From positions 1 through 32,615 of the forward strand of contig JAFRVI010000074.1 in NCBI GenBank assembly GCA_017438525.1: a DNA stretch of 32,615 nucleotides, written 5' to 3'. The DNA is from Clostridia bacterium (lineage in GTDB: Bacteria; Bacillota; Clostridia; Oscillospirales; RGIG8002). How positions within the stretch are numbered: the first letter of the stretch is position 1; each line of letters starts with the position of its first letter. The position numbers were made by a program, and so were the translations under genes. A model generated the notes under the pieces. It was not told the DNA's origin and did no database searches. It was given only the letters and a program-made list of their open reading frames with translations. Shown here one piece after another: positions 10,487-17,090 of this stretch.

Positions 10487-11536
10487 TTACGGATAGCCGA
10501 TCCCGTTGGAATGGTAATAGATATAAACCGACTCGGTCTTCAGCTCATCGTCGAAGTTAATACATACCGTCGGCCACCAGCCGCAGCTGATCAGTAGCTC
10601 GTAGTTTCCCTCCTCCTGTGTGAGCACGTTGTAATTAAGAAGCTTTGCGAAGGGGCCGGCGTATTTATCCATAGGATCACCGTACATCACTTCCGAGCGG
10701 TAATCGCGCTCCTGCGGGAAGTTCGCTACGACGTCGTAGAGCGAATCGCCGAGTTTTATCCCTCTCGGATAAGTCAGGTCGTCTCTCGTGAACTCCGCGA
10801 GGTATAGTTCGGTAGAGGTGAACGGTTCGCCGTATAGTTTTTCGATAAACGTAAACCTCATGCCGTCATAGACGAGTATGCTTTTCTCATACCCTTCTTC
10901 GTCGCCTTCCTTGATCGTTTCTTTCGGTTCGCCGAGTATTTTTACAAGGTCTTCCTGAGTCGTTTTATCCGTCAGCCCGAACAGGTTGACCTCATCGACG
11001 GCGAGCTTCTGCGATTTGGCGCTCGGCACCACGGCGTAGAGCTTGTTGTATATGACCATGTCGCTCGGTCCCTCTCCGAGATAGTGGGGCACGGTGTCCA
11101 TCTCCATTATATCCTCGATGGTGAAGTTGAATTTCATATCCAGCAGCGTATGCAGTCTGCCCGTCGTCAGCCCGAGCTCGTTGAACTTCGCGAGATTCGC
11201 CGCGGTGTATTCCCGCTCAAGGAGGTGGGCATTGCCGCGCAGGCACTCCTCGGCTTGGCCGTTCGTCCAGTCGCGATACTCGTCCTCGTAGACCTGGCAG
11301 CGGATGAGATATTCGATATACTTTTCATACATCGGATCGCCGGAGCCGTCGAACTCCGAATCGGGGTGCAGCTCGAGCACCTTGTAATACATCTGTCCTG
11401 CCCCGCGGTCCGCGAGGATATAAAGCTTCGGCCCGCCGAGCCCGCTCGAAGACGCGGTCGGATCCGGCGCCTTCGCGCAGGCGAAAAGCGTCAGCGCCAT
11501 CGCCAATGCAAGTGTGAACGCAAGCAGTTTTTTCAC
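10487..11536 (-). CDS. Lipoprotein of unknown function, long paralogue
   Basis: A 349-residue lipoprotein. The signal peptide MKKLLAFTLALAMALTLFAC ends in the lipobox LFAC (Cys20). Residues about 30-135 (from GGPKLYILADRGAGQMYYK to the LGLTTGRLHTLL region) are closely related to the whole mature part of the next gene upstream (11604-12095). The remaining 210 residues form an extra C-terminal region with no recognised family; a stretch around LVKILGEPKETIKEGD recalls small lipoprotein repeats that recognise helices, but this is weak. Translation starts at GTG (11536) with AAGGAGGAG upstream. It would be tethered outside the membrane. Confidence 0.75.
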   Translation of the reverse strand: MKKLLAFTLALAMALTLFACAKAPDPTASSSGLGGPKLYILADRGAGQMYYKVLELHPDSEFDGSGDPMYEKYIEYLIRCQVYEDEYRDWTNGQAEECLRGNAHLLEREYTAANLAKFNELGLTTGRLHTLLDMKFNFTIEDIMEMDTVPHYLGEGPSDMVIYNKLYAVVPSAKSQKLAVDEVNLFGLTDKTTQEDLVKILGEPKETIKEGDEEGYEKSILVYDGMRFTFIEKLYGEPFTSTELYLAEFTRDDLTYPRGIKLGDSLYDVVANFPQERDYRSEVMYGDPMDKYAGPFAKLLNYNVLTQEEGNYELLISCGWWPTVCINFDDELKTESVYIYYHSNGIGYP

Positions 11537-11603
11537 GGTGACTCCTCCTTCAAAACGTATAGTATATTATTCGTAAATGACGGCCGTTCGACCGCTTCAG
11601 GAG

Positions 11604-12095
11604 TTATTCGCCGTCCCATTGTCCTTTCTCGAACATCTCCTGCACCTGCGCGGCAGTCAGCGTCATTATATCTTCAACGAGGTGGCTCGTATTCAACAGC
11701 GTATGCAGTTTATTCACGGTCAGCCCGAGCTCGTTGAACTTCTGCAGCTGCGCGGCGGTGTACTCACGCTCGAAGCGATAGGCCTTGCCGGAGAGGAATT
11801 CTTCCGCCTGCGAATTCGTCCAGTCGCGGAAGTTATCCTCCTTCAGCTGACAGCGGATAAGGTAATCGTAATACTTCTCGTCGGTTTTTTCGTCCGCACC
11901 GTCGAAATCGGCGTCCGGATGGAGCTCGAGCACCTTGTAATACATCTGACCTGCTCCACGGTCCGCGAGGATATAAAGCTTCGGTCCGCCGAGCTCGCTC
12001 GAAGACGCGGTCGGCTCCGCCGCCTTGCCGCAGGCGAAGAGCGTCAGCGCCATCGCCAATGCAAGTGTGAACGCAAAAAGTTTCTTCATATTCAT
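11604..12095 (-). CDS. Lipoprotein of unknown function, short paralogue
   Basis: A 163-residue lipoprotein with signal peptide MNMKKLFAFTLALAMALTLF followed by the lipobox Cys. The mature part from GGPKLYILADRGAGQMYYKV onward matches the first 100 or so residues of the gene at 10487-11536: the same VLELHPD, YLIRCQ, RDWTN, REYTAA and KFNELGLT blocks. It then ends about 30 residues later (EMFEKGQWDGE), so it is either a minimal form or a truncated duplicate. The ATG at 12095 has AAAGGAGCG upstream at good spacing. It lies between its longer paralogue and a third lipoprotein with the same signal peptide. Confidence 0.75.
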   Translation of the reverse strand: MNMKKLFAFTLALAMALTLFACGKAAEPTASSSELGGPKLYILADRGAGQMYYKVLELHPDADFDGADEKTDEKYYDYLIRCQLKEDNFRDWTNSQAEEFLSGKAYRFEREYTAAQLQKFNELGLTVNKLHTLLNTSHLVEDIMTLTAAQVQEMFEKGQWDGE

Positions 12096-12124
12096 ACTGT
12101 CGCTCCTTTCTGCATGATCGGCGA

Positions 12125-12790
12125 TCAATCTCCGTAATCGTCGTTCGATACCGCGCGGGCGTATTCGAGCTTTTGCTCGTAATCCTTGATGATGGTCGCC
12201 CTCAGCTCATCGTCGCTTCTCGCGATTATCTCCTCGTCGGATTCGTATTCGTAGAACTTGCGAAGGCGTATGAAATCGTCTTCGGTTATCCCGCGGCGCT
12301 CGAGCTCGGCGCGGATCTCTTCGCTCGGCCTCAAGCTTTCATGCGTTTTCGCGTAGCTGTACGCCTCATAATCGTCAAATGTCCAGTTAAGGAGCACGGA
12401 GTAGGGTACTTCCGGGAAGAGAGTTCTCATATTGTTGATCGAGGCGCTGTCGAGCTTTTGTTTTCCTTCGAATTCTTTGAATTCACTTTCCGTCATTGCT
12501 TTCGCTTCCGCTTTGGTCTTGCCGTATTGGATGGCTAATTCGACCGCTACGTCCGTCAGATGCCGGTCGTCGCGGACGGCCATGAGATTGACGTTTTTCA
12601 TCTCTATGCCGAGCGAGGTCGGCAGGTACTTGTCGTAGACGCGGATGTCCTCGAAGGTGAACGCGGGTTCGGCGTCATCCTGCGTATCCGTGACGGGCTC
12701 CGAGCTGCCGACCGGCTCCGCCGCCTTGCCGCAGGCGAAAAGCGTCAGCGCCATCGCCAATGCAAGTATGAATGCAAACGTTTTTTTCAT
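12125..12790 (-). CDS. Lipoprotein of unknown function with shared signal peptide
   Basis: A 221-residue lipoprotein. Its signal peptide MKKTFAFILALAMALTLFAC and the following GKAAEP are almost identical to the two genes downstream, but the mature part is different. After a Ser/Asp-rich linker it is highly charged and mainly helical, with Glu/Lys/Arg-rich stretches such as KTKAEAKAMTESEFKEFEG and a C-terminal helix ending in KLEYARAVSNDDYGD. No family is recognised. The ATG at 12790 has AAAGGAGGAA upstream. A TACAAT -10 element lies at 12867-12862 on the minus strand without an obvious -35; direct repeats occupy that position instead. It is first of the three-lipoprotein run. Confidence 0.75.
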   Translation of the reverse strand: MKKTFAFILALAMALTLFACGKAAEPVGSSEPVTDTQDDAEPAFTFEDIRVYDKYLPTSLGIEMKNVNLMAVRDDRHLTDVAVELAIQYGKTKAEAKAMTESEFKEFEGKQKLDSASINNMRTLFPEVPYSVLLNWTFDDYEAYSYAKTHESLRPSEEIRAELERRGITEDDFIRLRKFYEYESDEEIIARSDDELRATIIKDYEQKLEYARAVSNDDYGD

Positions 12791-12889
12791 TTTAGATTCC
12801 TCCTTTAAAAGATGATCATATGTTTTTCGCGCTCGCGGGCGCGGTATCTCGCTGCAATTACATTGTATCATAAAATAACGTAAAAAACG

Positions 12890-13008
12890 GTTACAAATAA
12901 GTTACAGTTTTGTAACCGTTTTGTAACTTTTAGGGCGTTTTTGTAACTTTTTTGTTACTTTTACGGCTGTTTTGTAACTATTTTGTAACTTTTACGGTTT
13001 TTTGTAAG
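12890..13008. repeat. 31-bp tandem repeats with 11-bp internal period (GTAAC/GTTAC array)
   Basis: GTNAC cores start at 12890, 12901, 12912, 12923, 12943, 12954, 12974, 12985 and a variant (GTAAG) at 13004. The first four are exactly 11 bp apart. From 12912 onward the pattern repeats every 31 bp (11 + 20), giving three units and a partial fourth. The region is T-rich on the plus strand. The array lies between the carB-dapF terminator and the promoter of the lipoprotein gene at 12790, with its nearest core at the -35 position. An array of regulator sites is a likely explanation. Confidence 0.8.
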
Positions 13009-13012
13009 CATA

Positions 13013-13045
13013 CAAAAAAGAGCGTGCGGCGGCACGCTCTTTTTA
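13013..13045 (-). terminator. Intrinsic terminator of the arginine operon
   Basis: On the minus strand, AGAGCGTGCC and GGCACGCTCT-type arms (13019-13040) form a GC-rich stem with U-run at 13018-13013. It lies 14 bases after the carB-dapF stop. A T-run on the plus side also exists. Confidence 0.88.
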
Positions 13046-13058
13046 TATACGCGTTTGA

Positions 13059-16000
13059 TTATATTTCGACCTCGCCCTCATACACGAAGGCGGCGTCGCC
13101 GGTCAGCAGTACGCGGCCGTTCTCGACGCGGACGTTCAGATCGCCGCCGGGGAGCTTGACGGTCACGTCGCCGTCCGGACGGCAGAGCCCGAGGCGTATC
13201 GCGGCGGCGGCTCCGGCGCAGGCGCCGGTACCGCAGGCGAGCGTTTCGCCGTTGCCGCGCTCCCAGACGCGCATTTTCAGCGTCGTGGGGTTGACGACGC
13301 GGACGAACTCGACGTTTATCCTGTCGGGGAACATATCCGCGTGCTCGAATATCTGACCGACGCGCGGGACGTCAACGGCGTCCACGCGGTCGCAGAAGAT
13401 GACGCAGTGCGGGTTGCCTACCGAGAGGCAGGTTATGCGGCGCTCCTCGCCCGCGACGTTCACAGGTCTGTCGATTATCTCGCCGCCGAGGGAGGAGGGC
13501 AGGGAGGCGGCGTCGAAGTCGGCTTCGCCCATGTCGACGGTGACGGAGGTCACGCGCCCGTTGGTAAGATACAGCCGCAGCTTCTTTATTCCGCTCGCGG
13601 TCTCTACGGAGATCTCGTCGCCGGCGACAATCCACTTGTCGTGCAGATATTTGCCGACGCAGCGGATGCTGTTGCCCGCCATAAGTCCCTCGCTTCCGTC
13701 GCGGTTGAAGATGCGCATCTTCGCGTCCGCGACGTCGGAGCGTTCGATATAAACGATCCCGTCGCCGCCGACGCCGTAGGCGCGGTCGCAGAGGGTGACG
13801 CAGAGGGATTCCGGCGCGGGCAGCGCGCCGTCGAAGTTCTCGAAGAAGATGTAGTCGTTGCCGGAGCCCTGCATCTTCGTGAAGCGCAGGCGCGGACGCT
13901 CCCTGCGCATATGCGCTATGTCCACCAGCTCGGTGTTGAAGGCGTTGTAGCGGCTCGCGATTATGTCCGCTACGGCGTTCGCGGTGTCGAGCGACGTGAA
14001 GCACGCCACCGAATGCGCGAGCGCGCGGCGGTGCAGCGCGATATAGTCCTCGATGGTGTCGTCGTAGACGGCGCCGGTGTAGACGACGTAGCTGACCGCG
14101 CCGCTCTCGATGAGGTTGAAGACCTCGCCGCTTTCACGCACTCCGGGCACGCGCTCGACGTCGATGCCGAGCGAGGCGATGGAGTCGGCGGTGTCGGCGG
14201 TCGCATAGAGCTTCATGCCGAGATCGTCAAACTTCTTTGCGAGCCCGACGACTTCGTAGAGGTCGTGCGCGTCGACGCTGAGGAAGACGCCGACGTCGGC
14301 GTTCGTATCGTGCGGCGAAACGACCTTGATGCCCGCGGCGGTCAGCCCCTTGAAGAGCGCTTCCGGCAGAGTCCTGCCGATGCCGAGCGCTTCGCCGGTG
14401 GACTTCATCTCGGGCCCGAGGTATGCGTTGACGTCGGTCAGCTTCTCGAAGGAGAATACAGGCACCTTGACGGCGTAGTAGGGCGGAGTCGGGCAGAGCC
14501 CCGTTCCGCAGCCGAGCTCGCGCAGCGTCGCTCCGCACATGACGCGGGAGGCGATATCCACCATCGGCACGCCGGAGACCTTGCTGATATACGGCACGGT
14601 GCGCGACGCGCGGGGGTTGACTTCGATAACGTAGAGCTCGTTTTCGTATATGAGATACTGTATGTTGACAAGGCCCTTCGTGCCGAGCGCGAGGGCGAGC
14701 TTCGTCGAGTAGTCGACGAGCTTTTTCAGCATTATGTCGCCGATGTTGTAGGTCGGGTAGACGGCGATGGAGTCGCCGGAATGTACTCCGGCGCGCTCGA
14801 TGTGCTGCATTATGCCGGGGATGAGCACGTCCGTGCCGTCGGAGATGACGTCCACCTCGAGCTCGGGCCCCATCATGTATTTGTCGCAGAGCACGGGCGC
14901 GGAGATGCCTCCGGCGAGTATGCGGCGCATATAGACCGATACGTCGCGCTCGTCGTGCGCGATGGTCATATTCTGGCCGCCGATGACGTAGCTCGGGCGG
15001 AGCAGCACGGGATAGCCGAGCTCCTTCGCAGCGGCGAGCGCGCCTTCCTCGGTGGTGACGGATTCGCCCTTCGGGCGCCTTATCGAGAAGCGCTCGAGCA
15101 GCGCGTCGAAGCGTTCGCGGTCCTCGGCGGTGTCAATGCCGTCGGCGGAGGTGCCGAGTATCTTCACTCCGTTTTCGTCAAGGAACTTCGCGAGGCGTAT
15201 CGCGGTCTGGCCGCCGAAGGCGACGACGACTCCGACGGGGTTCTCGGCGCGGATGACGTTCATCACGTCCTCCTCGCAGAGCGGCTCGAAGTAGAGGCGG
15301 TCGGCGGTGTCGTAGTCGGTGGAGACGGTCTCGGGGTTGTTGTTGATTATGACGACGTCGTAGCCGATCTCCTTGAGCGTTTTGACGCAGTGGACGGAGG
15401 AATAGTCGAACTCGATGCCCTGACCGATGCGTATCGGACCGGAGCCGAGCACGATTATGACCGGCTTGCCGGAGCGGACGAAGCGGCGCGAATCGCAGGC
15501 GTCGTCGTAGGTCGAGTAGAAATACGGCGTTTCCGCGTCGAACTCCGCGGCGCAGGTGTCGACCATCTTATAGACGGCGTCGCGGTGCGGCGGAAGAGGG
15601 TGCGCGGAGAGCCGCGCCAGCGCCTTGTCGGTGTAGCCGAGGCGCTTTGCGCGGAGGTATTCCTCCTCCGTCAGCGCGCGCCCCTCGATTTCGTTCTCGA
15701 AGTCGGCGAGCTTCTTCAGGCAGCCGATGAAGTATTTGTCGATGCGCGTCGCGGCGTTTATCTCGTCGGCGCCGACTCCCTTGCGGAGCGCCTCGAATAC
15801 GGTGAAAAGGCGGTGGTCGTCCATGCGCTTCAGCCGTTCCTCTACCGGCTCGCCGCCGCCGGAGCGGTCGAGCGTGTCGAGAGAGATCTCCGCGCCGCGC
15901 ACCGCCTTCATTACGGCGGCCTCGAAGGAGTGGGCGATGGCCATGACCTCGCCGGTCGCCTTCATCTGCGTGCCGAGCGTGCGGTCGCTGCCGGGGAACT

Positions 16001-17090
16001 TGTCGAAGGGCCACTTCGGGAACTTGACGACGACGTAGTCGACCGTCGGCTCGAAGCAGGCGCAGGTCTTTCCGGTTATTTCGTTGGGTATCTCGTCGAG
16101 CGTGTAGCCGAGCGCGAGCTTCGTGGTGATCTTCGCGATCGGGTAGCCCGTCGCCTTCGACGCGAGGGCGGAGGAGCGCGAAACGCGCGGGTTTACCTCG
16201 ATGACGGCGTATTCGAAGCTGTCGGGATCGAGCGCGAACTGGCAGTTGCAGCCGCCGACGATGCCGAGCGCGGAGATTATGTCGAGCGACGCCGTGCGGA
16301 GCATCTGGTATTCCTTGTCGGAGAGCGTCAGCGCGGGCGCGGCGACGATGCTGTCGCCGGTGTGGACGCCGACGGGGTCGAAGTTTTCCATGCTGCAGAC
16401 GGCGATGGCGTTGCCGGCGCTGTCGCGGACGGTCTCGAACTCGATCTCCTTCCAGCCGTAGATGTAACGCTCCACGAGTATCTGGCGTATCGGGGAGGTG
16501 TCGAGCCCTATCGCCGCGACGGAGCGCAGCTCGTCTGCGTTATATGCGATGCCGCCGCCGCTTCCGCCGAGGGTGAAGGCGGGGCGCACGATGACGGGGT
16601 ATTTAATCCTGTCAGCGATATCAAGCGCGGTTTCGACGTCGTTGGCGATGTCGGAGGGTATCGTCGGCTGGCCGAGCTCCTCCATCGTCTGCTTGAAAAG
16701 CTCGCGGTCCTCGGCGCGCGAAATGGCTTCCGCGTCGGTGCCGAGCAGGCGCACGCCGTGCGCGGCGAGCCAGCCGTCGCGGGAGAGCTTCATCGCGAGC
16801 GTAAGGCCGGTCTGTCCGCCGAGGGAGGCGAGCAGACTGTCGGGCTTCTCCTTTTCGATGACGCGCTTGAGCGTTTCTTCGTTGAGGGGCTCGAGGTATA
16901 TTTCGTCGGCGAGCGCGGCGTCGGTCATTATCGTGGCGGGGTTGGAGTTGACCAGCACGGTGTCCACTCCCTCCGCGCGAAGCACGCGGCAGGCCTGGGC
17001 GCCGGCGTAGTCGAACTCGGCGGCCTGCCCGATAACGATGGGGCCGGAGCCGATGACGACGACTTTTTTGATTTCGGGATCGCGCGGCAT
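13059..17090 (-). CDS. carB: Carbamoyl-phosphate synthase large subunit fused to a diaminopimelate epimerase-like domain
   Basis: A 1343-residue protein. Residues 1 to about 1060 are a complete CarB: N-terminal VVVIGSGPIVIGQAAEFDYAG, ATP-grasp site 1 (FTLGGSGGGIAYN), then the second half starting VIVLGSGPIRIGQGIEFDYSS, ATP-grasp site 2 (PVLLRPSYVIGGQNM), and the C-terminal MGS-like allosteric domain. It makes carbamoyl phosphate from bicarbonate, ammonia (from CarA) and two ATP. Residues 1068-1343 are a DapF domain: FTKMQGSGNDY, GVGGDG, NRDGSEG, SVGNPH and ACGTGACAG. In DapF two cysteines act as acid and base. Here the second (Cys1286) is present, but the first is Ala1138 (codon GCG) in LMAGNSIRC. 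The frame shows no stop between the domains. The ATG overlaps the carA stop (TAATG). Last gene of the arginine operon. Confidence 0.93.
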   Translation of the reverse strand: MPRDPEIKKVVVIGSGPIVIGQAAEFDYAGAQACRVLRAEGVDTVLVNSNPATIMTDAALADEIYLEPLNEETLKRVIEKEKPDSLLASLGGQTGLTLAMKLSRDGWLAAHGVRLLGTDAEAISRAEDRELFKQTMEELGQPTIPSDIANDVETALDIADRIKYPVIVRPAFTLGGSGGGIAYNADELRSVAAIGLDTSPIRQILVERYIYGWKEIEFETVRDSAGNAIAVCSMENFDPVGVHTGDSIVAAPALTLSDKEYQMLRTASLDIISALGIVGGCNCQFALDPDSFEYAVIEVNPRVSRSSALASKATGYPIAKITTKLALGYTLDEIPNEITGKTCACFEPTVDYVVVKFPKWPFDKFPGSDRTLGTQMKATGEVMAIAHSFEAAVMKAVRGAEISLDTLDRSGGGEPVEERLKRMDDHRLFTVFEALRKGVGADEINAATRIDKYFIGCLKKLADFENEIEGRALTEEEYLRAKRLGYTDKALARLSAHPLPPHRDAVYKMVDTCAAEFDAETPYFYSTYDDACDSRRFVRSGKPVIIVLGSGPIRIGQGIEFDYSSVHCVKTLKEIGYDVVIINNNPETVSTDYDTADRLYFEPLCEEDVMNVIRAENPVGVVVAFGGQTAIRLAKFLDENGVKILGTSADGIDTAEDRERFDALLERFSIRRPKGESVTTEEGALAAAKELGYPVLLRPSYVIGGQNMTIAHDERDVSVYMRRILAGGISAPVLCDKYMMGPELEVDVISDGTDVLIPGIMQHIERAGVHSGDSIAVYPTYNIGDIMLKKLVDYSTKLALALGTKGLVNIQYLIYENELYVIEVNPRASRTVPYISKVSGVPMVDIASRVMCGATLRELGCGTGLCPTPPYYAVKVPVFSFEKLTDVNAYLGPEMKSTGEALGIGRTLPEALFKGLTAAGIKVVSPHDTNADVGVFLSVDAHDLYEVVGLAKKFDDLGMKLYATADTADSIASLGIDVERVPGVRESGEVFNLIESGAVSYVVYTGAVYDDTIEDYIALHRRALAHSVACFTSLDTANAVADIIASRYNAFNTELVDIAHMRRERPRLRFTKMQGSGNDYIFFENFDGALPAPESLCVTLCDRAYGVGGDGIVYIERSDVADAKMRIFNRDGSEGLMAGNSIRCVGKYLHDKWIVAGDEISVETASGIKKLRLYLTNGRVTSVTVDMGEADFDAASLPSSLGGEIIDRPVNVAGEERRITCLSVGNPHCVIFCDRVDAVDVPRVGQIFEHADMFPDRINVEFVRVVNPTTLKMRVWERGNGETLACGTGACAGAAAAIRLGLCRPDGDVTVKLPGGDLNVRVENGRVLLTGDAAFVYEGEVEI

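Follow-up and report, generated by a model that had tools for sequence, protein, structure and literature searches.

A helically phased array of WalR-type repeats within a shared promoter module of surface-protein genes in a genus of uncultured Clostridia

The repeats at 12890-13008 of the window (the whole stretch of 32,615 nucleotides of a Clostridia bacterium that was analysed here) are real and evolutionarily conserved, and the lipoprotein promoter to which they belong is more aptly seen as one copy of a promoter module shared by several genes than as an isolated oddity. We regard the array as probably a compound operator read by an OmpR-family response regulator, the WalR-like one encoded on contig C21 being the best candidate. 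Computation brought out the motif, its phasing and conservation, its fixed spacing from the promoter, the shared regulon and the co-occurrence with that regulator; from these sequence features we infer binding and activation, and control of the promoter by an OmpR-family activator is well supported.

Results

Eight exact TGTWAC cores, arranged as four direct-repeat pairs of the form TGTWAC-N5-TGTWAC, make up the array (Table 1), together with one degenerate core that was read directly. The preliminary description had counted nine GTNAC-like cores; eight is the safer number, since the ninth, TGTAAG, lies 19 rather than 20 bp from its neighbour and is missing from the orthologous array of a second genome of the genus (G002). 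The eight cores follow one another at start-to-start steps of 11, 10, 11, 20, 11, 20 and 11 bp and do share one helical face, as had been proposed (vector length 0.96 at a 10.5-bp repeat, 0.49 at 11.0); the proposed 31-bp superrepeat was likewise recovered by TRF. With one mismatch allowed, the window holds six WalR-type pairs against 0.44 expected, a number that none of 100 shuffles reached. Exact pairs, four of them in the window, number 13 genome-wide, while the reversed control pattern gave none. Pair 1 is inverted relative to the other three, so that it and pair 2 face in opposite directions, away from each other.

Table 1. Coordinates of the array, its promoter and the neighbouring genes in the window
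Feature	Position	Strand	Remarks
Exact TGTWAC cores	12890-12895, 12901-12906	-	
Exact TGTWAC cores	12911-12916, 12922-12927, 12942-12947, 12953-12958, 12973-12978, 12984-12989	+	12953-12958 reads TGTTAC
Pair 1, TGTAAC-TTATT-TGTAAC	12890-12906	-	Promoter-proximal; reads towards promoter, about -51 to -35
Pair 2, TGTAAC-CGTTT-TGTAAC	12911-12927	+	Inverted relative to pair 1, 4 bp from it
Tetrad (pairs 1 and 2), GTTACA-N5-GTTACA-N4-TGTAAC-N5-TGTAAC	12890-12927		38 bp
Pair 3, TGTAAC-TTTTT-TGTTAC	12942-12958	+	31 bp past pair 2
Pair 4, TGTAAC-TATTT-TGTAAC	12973-12989	+	31 bp past pair 3
Degenerate ninth core, TGTAAG	13003-13008	+	Not conserved in G002
31-bp tandem repeat, 3.3 copies	12908-13007	+	TRF; three helical turns per unit
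Extended -10 element, TGATACAAT	12862-12870	-	Matched at identical place in 17 of 17 genus promoters
22-bp spacer, last core to -10	12868-12889	-	Conserved CGnTTTT at would-be -35
Lipoprotein gene behind promoter	12125-12790	-	221 aa, lipobox LFAC, no Pfam family
Second lipoprotein gene	11604-12089	-	Signal peptide near-identical to that of first
Third lipoprotein gene	10487-11536	-	Paralogue of second, 71% identity over 146 aa
Terminator-like hairpin of upstream carB-dapF gene	13014-13045	-	Read directly; separates carB-dapF from array

The -10 element TACAAT at 12862-12867 had been placed correctly and proved, moreover, to be extended. It had also been held that the promoter lacks a -35 and that the nearest core fills its place. 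The first part stands: no TTGACA-like hexamer was found within the spacer, and the hexamer at 17-bp spacing from the -10 reads CCGTTT. The second does not, as the core at 12890, 22 bp upstream of the -10 and at about -40 to -35, abuts the 17-bp-spaced position rather than occupying it. Promoters activated by OmpR/PhoB-type regulators typically have direct repeats at a 10-11-bp step that overlap or abut a poor -35, in front of a good -10; the window promoter conforms to this, with its 11-bp step, no -35 and an extended -10.

The second of the three lipoprotein genes probably lies on the same transcript as the first. Signal peptides are nearly identical across the trio (10487-12790), while the mature part of the first has no match to the other two, which suggests duplication or gene conversion at the shared signal-peptide end. 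Upstream of the array, carB and dapF form a single frame of 1343 codons (13059-17090, minus strand) with no stop between them; G002 keeps this fused frame open as well (in L107, 1066 codons precede dapF), which makes a true CarB-DapF fusion, rather than an assembly error, the probable reading.

Conservation is concentrated in the array itself. In the orthologous promoter of G002 all four pairs recur with unchanged steps and 48 of 48 core bases are identical; the array segment agrees at 105 of 118 positions, against about 43% upstream, where the intergenic DNA does not align. The more distant orthologue of G003 (79% protein identity) has eight cores in another layout. The random variation in repeat number and sequence that had been named as evidence against a function was not seen.

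A search of the genome for further repeats, as had been advised, returned, besides the 13 pairs, four exact copies of the 38-bp tetrad (C33, C40, C50 and C74) and none of its reversed control. With up to two mismatches, the tetrad is present in all three other genus genomes compared and in 0 of 36 genomes of the same order. Its copies precede genes for exported or membrane proteins. These are lipoproteins and a large membrane protein with A2M/MG2 domains, encoded divergently from argH; in the window genome (C57), each half of the tetrad before the latter gene lacks 1 bp. We considered and rejected a divergent use of the upstream half by argH, which has its own TTGACA-type promoter at another distance. 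When we aligned 17 genus promoters from four genomes, all located before lipoprotein or A2M-like surface genes, the distance from the last core to a TGn-preceded -10 was exactly 22 bp in every one, and none had a TTGACA-like -35 at 17 bp. TTTGTAA-n-CG-n-TTTT is invariant across the alignment, and the cores and flanking T-tract are strongly conserved. The preliminary description was incomplete in this respect, having missed the inverted tetrad, its recurrence before other lipoprotein genes and the exact spacing.

The five target genes of the window genome have differing products and no common Pfam family, which argues that the module was not simply inherited with its gene. The tetrad is its constant part and the outer pairs its variable part, as judged from the layout kept in G002, the different one in G003 and several other genus promoters that have the tetrad alone. 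Units that are 85% alike and a TRF score of 144, the highest in the window, would also suit a functionless, slippage-prone 31-bp tandem repeat, yet we give this reading practically no weight given the same tetrad before unrelated genes, the fixed 22-bp spacing and the identical cores of G002. For the tetrad this already refutes slippage; the outermost two pairs may still be neutral expansions.

The inverted arrangement of the tetrad with its fixed N4 centre might instead point to an operator outside the OmpR family, such as one for a dimeric or tetrameric repressor bound to the central palindrome GTTACA-N4-TGTAAC. We consider this quite unlikely, as the sites outside the tetrad are direct pairs and not palindromes (pairs 3 and 4, the G002 and G003 arrays and the order-level sites described below), and a site upstream of a promoter without a -35 suits an activator. 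More improbable still is a promoter boosted by curved A-tract DNA or an extended UP element with no specific regulator involved. The A/T tracts do recur at the helical repeat and are well conserved themselves, but across unrelated genes the cores vary almost as little in their G and C as the tracts do, and the order-level copies are located past the -10, a position from which an UP element cannot work.

Scanning all species genomes for the exact tetrad yielded 35 stretches, with the window architecture only in L042, whose sequence matches contig C15 of G001, a member of the genus; the remainder are mostly runs of an 11-bp GTWACA repeat from unrelated phyla. Genomes of Kiritimatiellae (L035, L037, L059 and L060) carry inverted GTTACA/TGTAAC tetrads with exactly the same spacing, apparently a dispersed repeat unrelated to the window promoter. 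Two further candidates were set aside: the pair at C48:2908, which is without the promoter layout and looks like a chance or repeat-type match, and a role of the array at the RNA level, rejected because the array sits upstream of the -10 in the genus.

Cores also occur in other layouts within the genus. The LysM-G5-M23 peptidase gene of the window genome (C75) has them, and before this gene in L099 (4038-4250), L109 and L116 an inverted core group lies about 100 bp upstream in a conserved layout, with one core inside the -35/-10 spacer. A lipoprotein-like gene of G002 and G003 (L106 4250-4297; L115 1796-1842) has a TTGACT/TATAAT promoter with three cores upstream and one in its spacer, which looks like a combination of activator and repressor positions; the pair search did not find a promoter of this type in the window genome.

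The window genome encodes only three OmpR-family regulators (C21, C23 and C75). That of C21 belongs to an operon of lipoprotein, response regulator and histidine kinase, three genes that stay together across the order as in a wal-type operon, and its kinase has HAMP, HisKA and HATPase matches and no PAS match. The DNA-binding domain scores highest, and about equally, against the structures of E. coli OmpR and WalR/YycF (2zxj, 2d1v), and its recognition helix is near-identical to that of WalR, VVDVNIRRLRMKVEDDPSDP aligning opposite S. aureus WalR. Since none of the three regulators reaches the NCBIfam YycF cut-off (NF040534, 340 bits; they score 208, 192 and 138), we call the C21 regulator WalR-like rather than WalR. 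The TGTAAC pair was not seen before any of the three response-regulator genes, which gives no support to autoregulation; published Wal operons are likewise not autoregulated (PMC9210968). The preliminary description had suggested an OmpR/PhoB-family activator such as PhoP. The family is borne out by the direct-repeat geometry and the -35-less promoter, whereas, judging from the sequence, the WalR-like C21 regulator fits better than PhoP as the reader of the array; no phosphate gene was found among the targets examined.

Co-occurrence was assessed in 55 genomes of the order outside the genus, an orthologue of the C21 regulator being defined by at least 209 bits. TGTAAC-NNNTT-TGTAAC is present in 13 of the 33 genomes with the orthologue and in none of the 22 without (p = 0.0004), or by family in 9 of 15 against 0 of 10 (p = 0.002), with the qualifications that the genomes are related, so that the tests are not independent, and that the TT restriction, although it derives from the genus consensus, was settled on only once the order-wide list had been seen. 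Dropping it weakens the association (22/33 against 9/22, a hand count). These data also bear on whether another regulator reads the OmpR-family operator, namely that of the C23 response regulator-kinase pair, which is PhoB-like, or of the C75 pair. This seems unlikely to us: the geometry is indeed also used by PhoB, MtrA and RpaB (PMC4168254, PMC13189361, PMC9241938), and the best NCBIfam match of the C23 kinase is WalK, but the motif shows no link with the C23 regulator (present in 2 of the 12 genomes that have a strong orthologue and in 11 of the 43 that do not; p = 0.85 or more), whose DNA-binding domain is closer to SaeR/PhoB than to WalR, and the C75 regulator, with 138 bits, stands far from WalR. 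A point that counts against the C21 regulator, for its part, is that the tetrad is limited to one genus though this regulator is order-wide.

Among the order-level sites examined, where the downstream gene is clear it is mostly a peptidoglycan gene (M23 peptidases that carry G5, often also LysM; one 3D/G5 protein). Nine of the 12 sites examined sit 5 to 23 bp past a TTGACA-17-TAnnnT-like promoter, and just downstream of the -10 is where repression would be expected. In L153 and L154 (G014 and G036), a small conserved protein of about 98 amino acids with no Pfam match has several TGTAAC/TGTAAT cores across the stretch from the -10 to the start codon.

Discussion

What we infer for regulator binding, the direction of control, cooperativity and the cell-wall signal can be put as follows. 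Each TGTWAC-N5-TGTWAC pair would bind one head-to-tail dimer of the phosphorylated regulator. The dimer at about -51 to -35 would sit just upstream of a sigma-A RNA polymerase held by the extended -10, and its contact with the polymerase may replace the missing -35. With an extended -10, no -35 and a dimer in this position, transcription of the lipoprotein gene, and probably of the two behind it, should depend on the regulator. Extra dimers on the same face of the DNA, bound at the inverted pair and at the outer pairs in three-turn steps, could bring cooperative binding, higher occupancy or greater sensitivity to the level of the regulator. Where relatives have this pair directly past the -10, at genes for peptidoglycan peptidases, it should repress. 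The signal might be the state of the cell wall, as it is for WalK in B. subtilis (PMC7299342).

We propose only tentatively, and with slightly more doubt than confidence, a genus-specific operator architecture for an OmpR-family regulator: back-to-back dimer sites, extendable at three-turn steps and locked 22 bp from an extended -10, may have reached five or more unrelated genes for surface proteins and shifted an ancient cell-wall regulon in the direction of lipoproteins.

For uncultured Clostridia, the analysis supplies a candidate regulator together with a regulon that can be tested. It suggests that a wal-type operon for envelope control that includes a lipoprotein gene, like the one described in C. 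difficile, is common across this order. The genus further offers a natural promoter series, with two to four dimer sites at fixed spacing, in which the number and orientation of sites can be set against the response to an OmpR-family activator.

Among known systems, the closest comparison is with the WalR/YycF/VicR box of Firmicutes, whose consensus in B. subtilis, S. aureus, S. mutans and C. difficile is TGTWAH-N5-TGTWAH (PMC4168254, PMC9210968); the window pair matches its core and 5-bp spacer exactly. Both are linked to envelope genes, at lipoprotein, A2M-like and LysM-G5-M23 peptidase genes in the genus and at M23/G5/LysM and 3D/G5 genes in the order, and both have sites either upstream of the promoter or over the start, which by the rule discussed for VicR would activate and repress, respectively (PMC4168254). 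The C21 operon resembles walA-walR-walK of C. difficile in gene order and in a kinase without PAS, and the two regulons are alike rich in exported proteins (PMC9210968). It differs in that the next gene is not truA2 and that the regulator falls below the YycF cut-off; its lipoprotein has a sub-threshold FG-GAP match alone, and the comparison does not establish homology to WalA.

More distant systems share part of the picture. The MtrA box of Actinobacteria, a direct repeat of GTnAC 5-6 nt apart, has the same GTnAC cores, and MtrAB-LpqB likewise combines an envelope regulon with an associated lipoprotein (PMC13189361); it belongs, however, to another phylum, and the C21 regulator, at 175 bits, falls short of the MtrA cut-off of 300. 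HLR1 of cyanobacterial RpaB, two (G/T)TTACA(T/A)(T/A) repeats 2 nt apart (PMC9241938), has the same half-site, GTTACAAA, and a 10-bp rather than an 11-bp step. The sites were rightly described as unusually many: the published WalR sites compared are single boxes, or two in lytE, whereas here an inverted tetrad is joined by up to two more pairs, giving eight cores. Unlike those sites, the genus tetrad keeps one fixed position and has mainly lipoprotein targets. What is known is the kind of element, a WalR-type box; what is new is the genus-specific compound form of a WalR-like operator.
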